From Candidatus Sulfotelmatobacter sp. (GTDB lineage Bacteria; Acidobacteriota; Terriglobia; Terriglobales; Acidobacteriaceae): a DNA stretch of 64,000 nt. The notes beneath the pieces were generated by a model, which saw nothing but the letters and a program-made list of their open reading frames with translations, was not told where the DNA came from and made no database searches. Location: positions 62,001 to 126,000 of the forward strand of contig JADGNQ010000004.1 of assembly GCA_017883385.1 (NCBI GenBank). The letters run 5' to 3'. Shown in pieces: positions 2,782 to 42,480 of the stretch (positions within the stretch are counted from its first letter, which is position 1; every line of letters begins with the position of its first letter). The position numbers and the translations under genes were made by a program.

Positions 2782-3087
2782 GTGACTGTGTATCAGTTAG
2801 CTCAAGCCGAGAGGCAGTGGCCGGGGGGGAGACACTGCTCCCAATTCATTCTACCTAACTATCTTAGATGCAGAAGGTTGGCTTTTGGAGCAAAGTTGGG
2901 GTGGGGAATTCCAGGAACGGGGCAGTTCAGCAAGGGTCAGCCTCTAACGGCGAAAGCTTTTGACCGCAGAGAACGCAAAGGAATACGGTTGCCTGCTCTT
3001 CTTCGCGTCCTTCGCGGCCTTTCTTCGCGTTCTTTGCGGTTAAGGGCTTTTGATGTTCGCTTCGCGGGTATCATGGAGCGACCATCA
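2782..3087. other. Intergenic region between divergent hrcA and flavin oxidase
   Basis: No convincing gene. It must hold the hrcA promoter (minus) and that of the flavin oxidase (plus). The right half contains the family C inverted repeat at 2962-3041. No CIRCE operator is visible. Apparent coding continuity on the plus strand from hrcA into the oxidase is an antisense shadow. Confidence 0.5.
2962..3041. repeat. Dispersed inverted repeat, family C (variant)
   Basis: Imperfect palindrome: left arm ACCGCAGAGAACGCAAAGG, right arm reading CTTCGCGTTCTTTGCGGT, so the arms are near reverse complements. The wording (CCTTCGCGG, TTCTTTGCGGTT) resembles the other family C hairpins at 4304, 5742 and 37703, all built from CCTTCGTG / TTTGTGGTT-like words. 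Confidence 0.6.
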
Positions 3088-4305
3088 ATGAAATCCAAAC
3101 CTCACATCGCGGTGATTGGAGCCGGAGCCTTCGGCGGGTGGACAGCGCTGCATCTTCTGGAGCACGGGGCGCGCGTTACGCTGCTCGATGCTTGGGGCCC
3201 GGGAAATTCGCGGGCGTCTTCGGGCGGCGAGACTCGGGTCATGCGCGGTACCTACGGACCCGATCAACCTTACACGGAGATGGCCGCCCGCGCCCTCAAG
3301 CTCTGGGCCAAGTATGAACGCCGATGGAAGCGGCAGTTTCTGCACCGCACCGGCGTTCTGTGGATGGCTTCCGGGCTCGACGACGCTTTCGAAAGTGGAT
3401 CGGTAAAAGCGCTGCGCGCCGCGAAGATCAAGTTTCAGGAACTGTCATCCGCGCAGCTGAAGAAGCGCTGGCCGCAGATTAACTTTGATGGCATCGAGTG
3501 GGGCATCTTCGAGCCGGAGTGCGGATATCTGGATGCGCGCGCGAGTTGCGCGGCGGTCGTGGATGCGTTCGTAGCAGCGGGAGGCAAGTACCGGCAACTC
3601 GCAGCCCTGCCGGATTGGCTGGAGATGGAAAATACTCATGTGGGGACAGCCGCCTCGGCTGTCCGGTCGAGCGAAGCTCGACAGCCCCAGGACGATCTGC
3701 AGAACGCGCGTCTGGGAAATATCTCTCTTTCTGATGGCTCACGACTCAAAGCTCATATCTACGTCTTTGCTTGCGGGCCGTGGCTGGGCAAACTGTTCCC
3801 CCGCGCGGTCGGCGAACTGGTGAGCGCCACCAAGCAGGACGTCTTTTTCTTTGGAACTCCCTCAGGAGATTCACGATTCAGTGATGGGATGCTTCCCGTG
3901 TGGGCGGATCACCGGGGACGTTTTCGCTACGGCATTCCCGGCAGCGATCGCCGCGGATTCAAGATCGCCGACGACACGCGTGGGCCCGCCTTCGATCCGA
4001 CGGACGGCGAGCGCGTCGTCAGTGAGGAAACTCTGAGAGACATCCGCGAGTATGTCGCCTTCCGCTTCCCTGCCCTGAAGAACGCGCCGCTGGTGGAGAC
4101 TCGCGTCTGCCAGTACGAGCAGACCCCGGACAATCACTTCATCATCGACCGGCATCCGGAGAGTGAGAATATCTGGCTGCTAGGCGGAGGCTCAGGGCAC
4201 GGGTTTAAGCATGGGCCAGCAATCGGGGAGATGATGGCGGAGTTGGTGCTCAACGAACGCGAACCCGAACCAATCTTCCGCCTCGCGCGATTCAAGAACT
4301 CGTAA
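3088..4305 (+). CDS. FAD-dependent oxidase, monomeric sarcosine oxidase / N-methyl amino acid oxidase family
   Basis: DAO-superfamily flavin oxidase, probably oxidising an N-methyl or similar amino compound to imine plus H2O2. Evidence: N-terminal dinucleotide fold (VIGAGAFGGWTALHLLE), the family motif SSGGETRVMRGTYG, and near the C-terminus CQYEQTPDNHFIID. The Cys there matches the residue that carries covalent 8-alpha-S-cysteinyl FAD in monomeric sarcosine oxidase. The start at 3088 gives 405 residues (family about 390) and has GGAG upstream; an ATG at 3073 is also possible. Residues about 184-199 are encoded by a copy of dispersed repeat family A inserted in frame (3637-3684). The stop TAA overlaps the first bases of the hairpin at 4304. 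Substrate unknown. Confidence 0.88.
   Translation: MKSKPHIAVIGAGAFGGWTALHLLEHGARVTLLDAWGPGNSRASSGGETRVMRGTYGPDQPYTEMAARALKLWAKYERRWKRQFLHRTGVLWMASGLDDAFESGSVKALRAAKIKFQELSSAQLKKRWPQINFDGIEWGIFEPECGYLDARASCAAVVDAFVAAGGKYRQLAALPDWLEMENTHVGTAASAVRSSEARQPQDDLQNARLGNISLSDGSRLKAHIYVFACGPWLGKLFPRAVGELVSATKQDVFFFGTPSGDSRFSDGMLPVWADHRGRFRYGIPGSDRRGFKIADDTRGPAFDPTDGERVVSEETLRDIREYVAFRFPALKNAPLVETRVCQYEQTPDNHFIIDRHPESENIWLLGGGSGHGFKHGPAIGEMMAELVLNEREPEPIFRLARFKNS
3637..3684 (-). repeat. Dispersed palindromic repeat, family A, copy 1 (inside a gene)
   Basis: CATGTGGGGACAGCCG followed by the complementary CGGCTGTCC, then a second hairpin GTCGAGC-GAA-GCTCGAC. Same two-hairpin layout as the copies at 18103, 21973 and 42421, but in the opposite orientation. 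It lies in frame within the flavin oxidase gene. Confidence 0.8.
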
Positions 4306-4365
4306 CCACAGAGGACACAGGGGACACGGAGCAATTCCTCTGTGTCCCCTGTGTCCTCTGTGGTT
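4304..4365. repeat. Long hairpin, family C, between convergent genes
   Basis: About 28-base arms: AACCACAGAGGACACAGG and onward, with a CAATT loop and the reverse complement ending CCTCTGTGGTT; one mismatch. It begins inside the TAA stop of the flavin oxidase and ends 9 bases before the mrp stop, so it is well placed to terminate transcription from both sides. There is no strong T run, so this role is inferred. Confidence 0.7.
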
Positions 4366-4373
4366 GAAAGCTC

Positions 4374-5231
4374 TTACTGAATCTGAATCACGCTGGCCGG
4401 CGCCGCTGCCTTGACCTCATCTACACGCTTCACGACGTTCCGCGCGAACTCGTAGATAGATTTGGCATGTGGTGAATTCTCGCCTTCCAGCACGACTGGC
4501 GTTCCACCGTCGCCCGACTTGCGCACTTCCGGATCGAGCGCAATATTCCCCAGGAACGACACTCCAAACTGCGCCGCCATTTTTTCAGCACCGCCCCGCG
4601 AGAAGATGTCCACTTCGTGCTGGCAGTGCGGGCAGGTGAAATAGCTCATGTTCTCGACCACGCCGACGATATCGACTTTCATCTGGCGGAACATTTCGAT
4701 GGCCTTGCGCGCGTCCTGCAGCGAAACGTCCGACGGAGTCGAAACCACCACCGCGCCCGTCAGCGGCACGGTCTGCACCAGCGAGAGCGCGATGTCGCCC
4801 GTGCCCGGCGGCAGATCGACGATGAGATAGTCGAGTTGTCCCCACTCGACGAGGCCCAGAAACTGGCGCACGATCTGGTGCAGCATCGGTCCGCGCCAGA
4901 TGATGGGCTTGTCGCCGGGATTGAGGAATCCCACAGAAATTACCTTCAGGCCAAACGCCTGGATCGGCTCAATGCGGTTCTCGCCGACCATGCGCGGCTG
5001 GTCGCTGACTCCCAACATAAGGGGAACATTGGGACCGTACACATCGGCATCGAGCAAGCCAACCTTGTGGCCCATTTTCGTCAGCGCGACAGCCAGGTTC
5101 ACCGACAGCGTGGTCTTGCCGACGCCGCCCTTTCCCGAACCGACGGCGATGATGGCGTCCACGCCCGGCAGCGGCTGCGGCCCCTGCGGCGTTGGACCTT
5201 GTCCATGCTGATGCGGCATATGTGCGTTCAA
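4374..5231 (-). CDS. mrp: Mrp/NBP35-family iron-sulfur cluster carrier ATPase
   Basis: P-loop ATPase of the Mrp/ApbC family that carries and transfers Fe-S clusters in the cytoplasm. Deviant Walker A VGSGKGGVGKTTLSVNLA at about 31-48, switch region LLDADVYGPNVPLMLG, and the CPHC motif (FTCPHCQHEVDIF) that bridges a cluster between subunits. The 285-residue form lacks an N-terminal MIP18/DUF59 domain and has instead a short His/Pro/Gly-rich start (MPHQHGQGPTPQGPQP). The listed start is TTG at 5231 with GGAG upstream; an ATG four codons later is the alternative. It stands alone, convergent with the flavin oxidase. Confidence 0.94.
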   Translation of the reverse strand: MNAHMPHQHGQGPTPQGPQPLPGVDAIIAVGSGKGGVGKTTLSVNLAVALTKMGHKVGLLDADVYGPNVPLMLGVSDQPRMVGENRIEPIQAFGLKVISVGFLNPGDKPIIWRGPMLHQIVRQFLGLVEWGQLDYLIVDLPPGTGDIALSLVQTVPLTGAVVVSTPSDVSLQDARKAIEMFRQMKVDIVGVVENMSYFTCPHCQHEVDIFSRGGAEKMAAQFGVSFLGNIALDPEVRKSGDGGTPVVLEGENSPHAKSIYEFARNVVKRVDEVKAAAPASVIQIQ

Positions 5232-6460: not shown

Positions 6461-6557
6461 TTGTCATTCTGAGCGAAGCGAAGAACCTATGCAGCTTGGT
6501 GGAAGCCAGAAGAGTGCATCGGTCCTTCGCGGCAAAGAACGCCGCTCAGGATGACAA
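6461..6557. repeat. Dispersed inverted repeat, family F
   Basis: TTGTCATTCTGAGCG at the left end and CGCTCAGGATGACAA at the right end are near reverse complements, with GAAGCGAAGAACC and TTCGCGGCAAAG in between. Intergenic palindromes with this wording are common in several bacterial phyla. It lies between vapC and the end of cydB and could also act as a terminator. Confidence 0.65.
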
Positions 6558-18088: not shown

Positions 18089-18102
18089 CGTTCACTGACA
18101 AC

Positions 18103-18150
18103 CCGCCGAGCTGCGCTCGGCGGACAGCCGGGGGCGGCTGTCCCCACATG
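18103..18150 (+). repeat. Dispersed palindromic repeat, family A, copy 2
   Basis: CCGCCGAG-CTG-CGCTCGGCGG hairpin followed directly by GACAGCCG-GGG-GCGGCTGTC and CCCACATG. It lies in the 70-base gap between the convergent rhomboid and amine-oxidase genes, where it may serve as terminator. Confidence 0.8.
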
Positions 18151-18158
18151 GGCTCTTC

Positions 18159-21972: not shown

Positions 21973-22024
21973 GCCCGCCGTGCTTCGCCCAGGCGGGACA
22001 GCCGCCTTCGGCTGTCCCCACATG
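21973..22024 (+). repeat. Dispersed palindromic repeat, family A, copy 3
   Basis: GCCCGCC-...-GGCGGG hairpin (with a TGCTTCGCCCA loop) directly followed by GACAGCCG-CCTTC-GGCTGTCCCCACATG. Same layout as copies 2 and 4. It lies just past the 3' end of the TonB-type receptor gene. Confidence 0.78.
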
Positions 22025-41941: not shown

Positions 41942-42385
41942 TTAACCAACAACTGAGATTCGCCGGCCGTTCTCGCCGGCACGCTCCAGGGCAATCTCCA
42001 CGTCGCGCTCGCGCAGCAGGCGCGGGAATTTCTCCCCCCACTCAATCAGCAGAATGCTGTTGTCGGAACGCAGATCGTCCAACCCGAGCGTCTCCAACTC
42101 TCGCGGCGTGTCGATGCGGTAAAGATCGATGTGGAAGAGATTGGCGCGCGGTCCTCGATACTCATGCACCAGCGTGAAGGTGGGACTGGTGACGTCTTCC
42201 TCGGCGGCCGCTTCAAAGGCAGCAGCGATTCCTTTGACCAGGGTAGTTTTGCCTGCTCCGAGATCGCCGCGCAGCAGCACAAGTTTGGGCGGCGCGAGGA
42301 GAGAAGCCAGAGTGCTGCCGAAGGCGACGGTCTCTTCAGGCGAATGCGTGGTGACTTCACGCGCGACACTTGTTTCGTTCTGCAC
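41942..42385 (-). CDS. tsaE: tRNA threonylcarbamoyladenosine biosynthesis ATPase TsaE
   Basis: P-loop protein required, with TsaB, TsaC and TsaD, for the t6A37 modification of ANN-decoding tRNAs. Walker A LLRGDLGAGKTTLVKG, then PTFTLVHEYRG and the family motif LFHIDLYRID, and LLIEWGEKFP. Start taken at GTG 42385 (147 residues, family size about 150); the frame continues upstream only through dispersed repeat A copy 4 (MWGQPPPAV...), which is not likely coding. A TATACT lies 6 bases before the GTG, so the mRNA may be leaderless. tsaB and tsaD are not here. Confidence 0.94.
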   Translation of the reverse strand: MQNETSVAREVTTHSPEETVAFGSTLASLLAPPKLVLLRGDLGAGKTTLVKGIAAAFEAAAEEDVTSPTFTLVHEYRGPRANLFHIDLYRIDTPRELETLGLDDLRSDNSILLIEWGEKFPRLLRERDVEIALERAGENGRRISVVG

Positions 42386-42402
42386 ACGACCAGTATAGCG
42401 GG
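42386..42402 (-). promoter_or_regulatory. Possible -10 element directly before tsaE
   Basis: Minus strand reads GCTATACTGGTCGT then GTG. TATACT is a good -10 match and would place the transcription start at or next to the GTG codon. The -35 region (GGCACT at 17 bases) is poor. No Shine-Dalgarno is present, which fits a leaderless mRNA. Confidence 0.35.
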
Positions 42403-42420
42403 GGCCGGCGTCGCAGTGCC

Positions 42421-42466
42421 GTCGAGCTTCGCTCGACTCGACAGCCGGGGGCGGCTGTCCCCACAT
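42421..42466 (+). repeat. Dispersed palindromic repeat, family A, copy 4
   Basis: GTCGAGC-TTC-GCTCGAC hairpin, then TC and GACAGCCG-GGG-GCGGCTGTCCCCACAT. It lies between tsaE and the PilZ-like gene, 14 bases before the latter's stop. Its first hairpin has the same words as copy 1 inside the flavin oxidase. Confidence 0.8.
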
Positions 42467-42480
42467 CTAGGTCTCGGGCG

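Follow-up and report, generated by a model that had tools for sequence, protein, structure and literature searches.

In-frame copies of a probable RAYT-spread, GTRG-tagged REP in an amine oxidase gene and in other protein loops of Candidatus Sulfotelmatobacter

The analysed stretch of Candidatus Sulfotelmatobacter sp. DNA (contig JADGNQ010000004.1, positions 62,001 to 126,000; 64,000 nucleotides) is referred to here as the window. An FAD-dependent amine oxidase gene in the window contained a palindromic element, called REP below, and three further copies were found at other positions. The features were as follows.

3088..4305, plus strand: insert-bearing gene of an FAD-dependent amine oxidase (DAO family, monomeric sarcosine oxidase fold, 405 aa)
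3631..3702, plus strand: codons 182-205, low-confidence segment with AlphaFold pLDDT under 50
3637..3690, plus strand: REP copy, in frame in the oxidase, residues about 184-201
3640..3643, plus strand: GTGG tag directly 5' of hairpin 1, a GTRG-type REP head
3644..3664, plus strand: hairpin 1 with a 9-bp stem and a 3-base loop, GGACAGCCG-CCT-CGGCTGTCC
3666..3682, plus strand: hairpin 2 with a 7-bp stem and a GAA loop, GTCGAGC-GAA-GCTCGAC
18103..18150, minus strand: REP copy between two convergent genes
21973..22024, minus strand: REP copy between genes
42421..42467, minus strand: REP copy at the 5' end of ORF 41942-42466, overlapping the ORF as listed

The oxidase protein was assigned to the DAO family by Pfam with a score above the cut-off, and its fold was that of monomeric sarcosine oxidase. 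All NCBIfam oxidase models scored below their own cut-offs. The REP copy from 3637 read CATGTGGGGACAGCCGCCTCGGCTGTCCGGTCGAGCGAAGCTCGACAGCCCC. The reading frame was uninterrupted across it, and residues 184-199 were HVGTAASAVRSSEARQ, in agreement with the first-pass annotation, which had described an element of about 16 residues lying in frame within a sarcosine-oxidase-like gene. Each half of the oxidase REP had a single match in the window at three or fewer mismatches. None of 100 shuffles gave a match, so neither half is expected by chance.

The copies at 18103, 21973 and 42421 had also been listed in that annotation, as intergenic. All three are real and begin on the minus strand at 18148, 22022 and 42465; the intergenic placement held for the first two, and the copy at 42421 overlaps the 5' end of an ORF as listed. 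The 70-base gap between the convergent genes (18089-18158) was almost wholly occupied by the REP. In ORF 41942-42466 (minus strand), which we take to be tsaE-like, the first ATG fell within the REP copy, and automatic start calls may thus add REP-encoded residues. A long inverted repeat, terminator-like by position, was observed after the oxidase stop codon at 4305-4364. A search of 3001-4400 against Rfam gave 12 matches, all under the gathering scores and none on the REP; these lay mostly on the separate inverted repeat at 4293-4376 and were taken as chance.

At 405 aa, the oxidase exceeded its close homologue at locus L095 (379 aa) by 26 residues. The REP core, about 16 residues, accounts for only part of this difference. 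In an alignment of 30 loci, source gene included, the segment was absent from 28 of the 29 relatives aligned across the site. The sole carrier was G002, the closest homologue among those found. Among 80 named loci, the motif lay within the oxidase gene only in L201, from the same record as G002; in L210 it was present outside the oxidase gene. Numerous homologues from the genus aligned as two pieces with a break at residues about 180 and 202, and the flanks on either side of the insert matched homologues along their whole length. Presence of the segment in G002 would also fit residues that are ancestral and were lost elsewhere, with a coincidental likeness to the repeat. This origin, under which homologues should carry the same residues, was rejected and is given a negligible probability: 28 of the 29 aligned relatives lack the segment, and the DNA matches a repeat of 125 copies that was found in nine other genes too. 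The G002 oxidase (locus L092) had an unrelated run of extra short repeated residues (DQPEI-like) directly before the REP, seen in G002 only among the 30 aligned loci.

The AlphaFold model of the oxidase, built on a 45-sequence alignment, had a mean pLDDT of 88.1. Residues 182-205 were the sole segment with pLDDT below 50, in line with the extra loop that the first-pass annotation had proposed to look for. The oxidase insert is predicted by this model to be a disordered loop.

The strict search pattern gave 125 copies in the source genome and 0 with a reversed control. The source genome is a 6.8-Mb draft of 446 contigs, 96.96% complete and 2.86% contaminated. Of these strict copies, 99 were examined, and degenerate copies were left out of the counts. 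The conservation of the tag and hairpin 1 among them was largely imposed by the search pattern itself. Conservation dropped off past hairpin 2. A perfect hairpin 2 stem of at least 6 bp was found in 59 of 99 copies, with 16 arm types; the corresponding figures were 7 of 97 for control stretches lying downstream and 2.2% for shuffles. The sequence of hairpin 2 differed among copies and its pairing was often kept. The apex GCGAAGC, as at 3666-3682 in the window, was found in 25 of the 99 copies. GCGAAGC forms an unusually stable DNA mini-hairpin, and this stability would suit a single-stranded DNA form of the REP. Element cores were free of stops in all six frames in 80 of 98 cases, whereas the share among shuffles was 32% (dinucleotide) and 23% (simple); under a wider element definition with a few more flanking bases, 54 of 99 copies were open in six frames. 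With stops absent from every frame of most copies, read-through of the REP would be possible in either orientation.

The named relatives were Candidatus Sulfotelmatobacter, Acidobacteriaceae and other Acidobacteria MAGs. Within the genus, 34 of 37 genomes had the strict pattern, with 1 to 151 copies each; it was found in 0 of 24 other relatives. Among 299 genomes drawn evenly from the class, five had the pattern; four belong to the genus, and the fifth, which does not, had a single copy. The element had the anatomy and the copy number of a REP. A GTGG (majority) or GTAG (minority) tag stood ahead of the 9-bp stem, copy number was high (125 strict copies), and most copies lay between genes (10 of 99 were counted within genes). 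GT(A/G)G is the REP head given by Nunvar 2010 (PMC2817692), GTGG is a described variant of the GTAG tag (Di Nocera 2013, PMC3733652), and one RAYT system still cleaved substrates with GTGG for GTAG, at altered or less efficient sites (PMC8266576).

Five PF01797 loci were found in the source genome, and NF047646 (REP-associated tyrosine transposase, RAYT) scored above its curated cut-off at the same five loci among the matches listed. The ORF at L123 (NF047646 score 84.5, cut-off 80) sat tightly between two REP copies, one GTGG-tagged and one GTAG-tagged. In the stretches examined, no such REP adjoined the remaining four RAYT loci. A RAYT gene tightly flanked by REPs was also found at locus L309 of G004, and the same arrangement, judged by coordinates, was found on contig 28 of G026. 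The REP is thus linked by position to a RAYT gene in three genomes. The GT(A/G)G head, the palindrome and a RAYT gene between two REPs are shared with described RAYT units and REPINs (PMC2817692, PMC3116915), and 8 of 10 close pairs in source-genome loci were inverted (+-), like REPINs (PMC3116915). Nunvar 2010 described the RAYT gene between two inverted REPs (PMC2817692), whereas the nearest flanking REPs in all three units here had the same orientation, which is a variant arrangement. Across genomes, RAYT matches and REP copies were not strictly coupled. G003 had at least 8 RAYT matches and 0 strict copies; for G008, which had 3 strict copies, the matches listed included no RAYT of any score; and G028 (46 strict copies) and G034 (13) had no above-cut-off RAYT among the matches listed. 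For Solibacter, another Acidobacterium, a transposase class described as atypical and associated with hairpins in high copy number has been reported (PMC6006769).

The element could instead be a MITE or a Rickettsia-type palindromic element, unrelated to RAYT, with terminal repeats and a transposase elsewhere. Like the Rickettsia elements, it is a mobile-type palindrome that lies in frame in conserved genes and adds a peptide (PMC2229807, PMC10969869), and some copies appeared by eye to share common motifs further out. However, conservation was weak in the flanks and faded outside the two hairpins. By-eye inspection of the oxidase site showed no clear target-site duplication, and none was established. 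The GTRG tag and the REP-flanked RAYT fit REPs. The Rickettsia elements are 105-146 bp or about 150 bp long (PMC2229807, PMC10969869), whereas the core here is about 50 bp, tagged, RAYT-linked and in Acidobacteriota. The REP acts like a Rickettsia palindromic element but, given its size and host, is not classed as one, and we regard the MITE or Rickettsia-type explanation as improbable. Mobility of the REP and its spread by the RAYT are inferred from sequence. The oxidase segment is very probably a copy of a genus-level GTRG-tagged REP that was spread by a REP-associated tyrosine transposase.

In the source genome, 10 of the 99 examined copies were in frame within protein genes. A codon-usage rule trained on this genome placed 9 of 99 copies in frame within coding sequence, in the genes of the oxidase, HypF, Tgt, RNase R, a DCC1-like protein, AlaRS, an agmatine-deiminase-like protein (below the NCBIfam cut-off and above that of Pfam), LipB and LpxB. 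The tenth, the molybdopterin oxidoreductase gene of L004, failed the codon-usage rule and was added by its Pfam span. In L018 the frame is open over a long distance but its codon usage is weak, and this copy was excluded from the count. The suggestion in the earlier annotation that repeats may be adding protein segments in this genome was supported by nine further in-frame insertions. No gene-breaking copy was found among the 99 copies by a codon-usage-type rule; the lone frame-breaking candidate, L059, was located between two ORFs. In G023, which has 74 copies overall, 3 of the 31 copies examined were in frame, in SelD, an agmatine-deiminase-like protein (at the same site as in the source genome) and a molybdopterin oxidoreductase. 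In the N-terminal part of the molybdopterin oxidoreductases of L004 (source genome) and L338 (G023), GQPxAAVPT followed a YPMRR stretch in both, and this may be another reused site.

The draft state of the assembly raises the possibility that repeats misjoined contigs of the 446-contig MAG, or that the genes are dead. Yet both flanks belonged to the same gene, in frame, in every case, orthologous inserts were present in independently assembled genomes, and the oxidase flanks aligned throughout with homologues. The insert-bearing alaS, tgt, lpxB, lipB and rnr genes were the sole full-length matches in the source genome, which argues against pseudogenes. An assembly artefact was rejected on the in-frame same-gene flanks and the orthologous inserts, and error or gene death is very improbable as an explanation.

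REPs within genes, in frame, have been reported in several species, with flexible linkers or loops suggested to tolerate them and with REPs at roughly the same recB site in two Xanthomonas (PMC3733652). The REPs described there share with the present ones a GTRG-type tag and palindrome, an association with RAYT, in-frame REPs or dimers in ORFs, tRNA synthetases among the targets and the suggested loop tolerance. Unlike them, the present REPs occur in another phylum, have a GTGG majority tag and a second, variable hairpin, and occupy matching loops in several genes across the genus. Coding copies made up 10 of 99 examined here, compared with 14 of 1,067 16-mers overlapping genes in P. fluorescens SBW25 (PMC3116915). 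In-frame intragenic REPs and Rickettsia elements are already published.

Across related species, the content of the same loops varied among REPs pointing either way, paired REPs and other fillers. In 20 LpxB sequences of the genus (partial L195 left out), one loop had a recognisable REP in 13, a decayed-looking one in 2 and no insert in 5, and the REPs were in plus, minus or both orientations. None of four outgroup sequences had an insert. The LpxB tree required at least four changes between insert and no insert, and 11 of its 20 inner branches were weak; no order or direction of changes is claimed. For alaS and tgt, 12 loci each, chosen from more matches, were aligned. REPs were at one linker of Tgt in 4 of the 12 loci, with other fillers in the remaining loci, and AlaRS had REPs in 2 of 12 loci and REP-like remnants in a further 2. 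LipB had REPs in at least 4 of the 25 compared; in several of the rest, a different repeat-like string was read. Clear REPs in RNase R were found in 2 of 17 genus loci (source genome and G002), within a highly variable linker.

Other repeats were noticed in these genes and in the window. A second, different palindrome of the GCGAGAAATGGGGCACCC family lay in frame in the same AlaRS gene (L077:4256, plus strand); this family gave 11 motif matches on 91 stretches, some counted on both strands. At AlaRS residues about 412-477 (L077), the alignments of many relatives broke at a second long lineage-specific linker with no recognised REP. A third repeat, of TGTCATTCTGAGCGAAGCGAAGAACCT type, lay at 6462-6488 (plus strand) in the window. 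The LipB loop in L151-L153, L156, L160, L162, L163 and L165 read LSSRAEEND-like strings, which may be the translation of the TGTCATTCTGAGCGAAGCGAAGAACCT-type repeat.

Retention of the coding copies as DNA was investigated in orthologues picked for a recognisable REP (near-exact 13-mer), so that decayed copies were omitted and agreement is subject to survivorship. Between the source genome and G002, 48 of 50 bases of the oxidase REP were identical, and third codon positions in the flanks agreed at 196 of 350. Four genes were compared between two species (oxidase, AlaRS, LipB with G017, and AguA-like). Agreement at their fourfold sites was 38 of 42 within the REP, compared with 432 of 834 for the flanks (Fisher p 2.5e-7). 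For LpxB from 8 species, the corresponding values were 269 of 321 and 2480 of 5204. The LpxB test used 8 of the 9 sequences with a minus-strand REP (L194 left out), the Tgt test used plus copies only, and the LipB test used the G017 pair only. The LipB copy of G015 was omitted for its interrupted hairpin 1 and matched at 35 of 56 aligned columns. Beyond the recognition 13-mer, where only LpxB was tested, third positions agreed at 179 of 224, compared with 5705 of 10836 in the flanks. Third-position identity of the REP was reached by 0 of 333 windows in LpxB and by 0 of 321 in the oxidase. Outside the oxidase, the best pairwise match of REP 49-mers was 47 of 49 (LpxB against G002). Since fourfold agreement in the REP exceeds that in the flanks, coding copies seem to be constrained, refreshed or re-inserted as DNA.

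The 5' arm of hairpin 2 in LpxB was GCGGAGC in 6 of 8 species, and a CGGAGC arm was found in 2 of the 59 well-paired copies of the source genome. Because this arm is shared in LpxB and rare in the genome, one old insertion is favoured and wholesale replacement by common copies is disfavoured. The most variable codon of the LpxB REP (G, R, M) sat on the hairpin 1 loop, which is also a variable site among copies genome-wide.

The high agreement at fourfold sites, together with a paired change in the hairpin 2 stem of G019 LpxB, might indicate that coding REPs are selected for a nucleic-acid role in the gene (mRNA hairpin, translation pause or DNA site), beyond mere tolerance. However, the genes were compared because their REP was recognisable, and decayed and insert-free orthologues exist. 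Some ordinary windows were as conserved as the REP in AlaRS (33 of 891), Tgt (13 of 354), LipB (10 of 203) and AguA (3 of 312), and the Tgt minus copies were identical at only 37 of 54 aligned columns. Such a role is rather unlikely on present evidence. A literature search, mainly of titles and the starts of abstracts, gave no paper on in-frame REPs in the genus or on their nucleotide retention. The parts of PMC3733652 on intragenic REPs do not report retention of REP DNA at degenerate sites. Genus-wide loop reuse and nucleotide-level retention thus appear new against this literature, in which no report was found.

Under the preferred reading, that the segments are RAYT-spread REP copies, the RAYT, an HUH/Y1-type single-strand DNA enzyme, would place REP copies around the genome. 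Copies landing in codons would survive only where their length keeps the frame and the protein loop is permissive, and frame-breaking copies would be purged by selection. The REP peptide in the oxidase is probably near neutral. After insertion the copy would stay a REP. Its hairpin DNA would be preserved through constraint, renewed from other copies or restored when a REP inserts again into the same loop. A more tentative proposal, which we hold to be possible rather than probable, is that coding REPs are dual-coding, the same 50 bases being maintained in two roles, one as a protein loop and the other as a living REP in the form of hairpin DNA or RNA.

For annotation, REP-encoded residues in alaS, lpxB, lipB and tgt of such genomes are to be treated as insertions, not domains. 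If dual coding is true, essential enzymes (LpxB and AlaRS, for example) would have loops whose amino acids are set by the constraint on the element, not by protein selection, and a recurrent traffic of REPs would go on remodelling the same loops. The genus offers a natural replicate series, in which one mobile repeat family occurs in many species and core-enzyme loops are found with, without and with decayed inserts. With this series one could test if mobile palindromes contribute to the evolution of proteins, if coding copies remain active REPs, and in what way proteins are shaped by a domesticated transposase.
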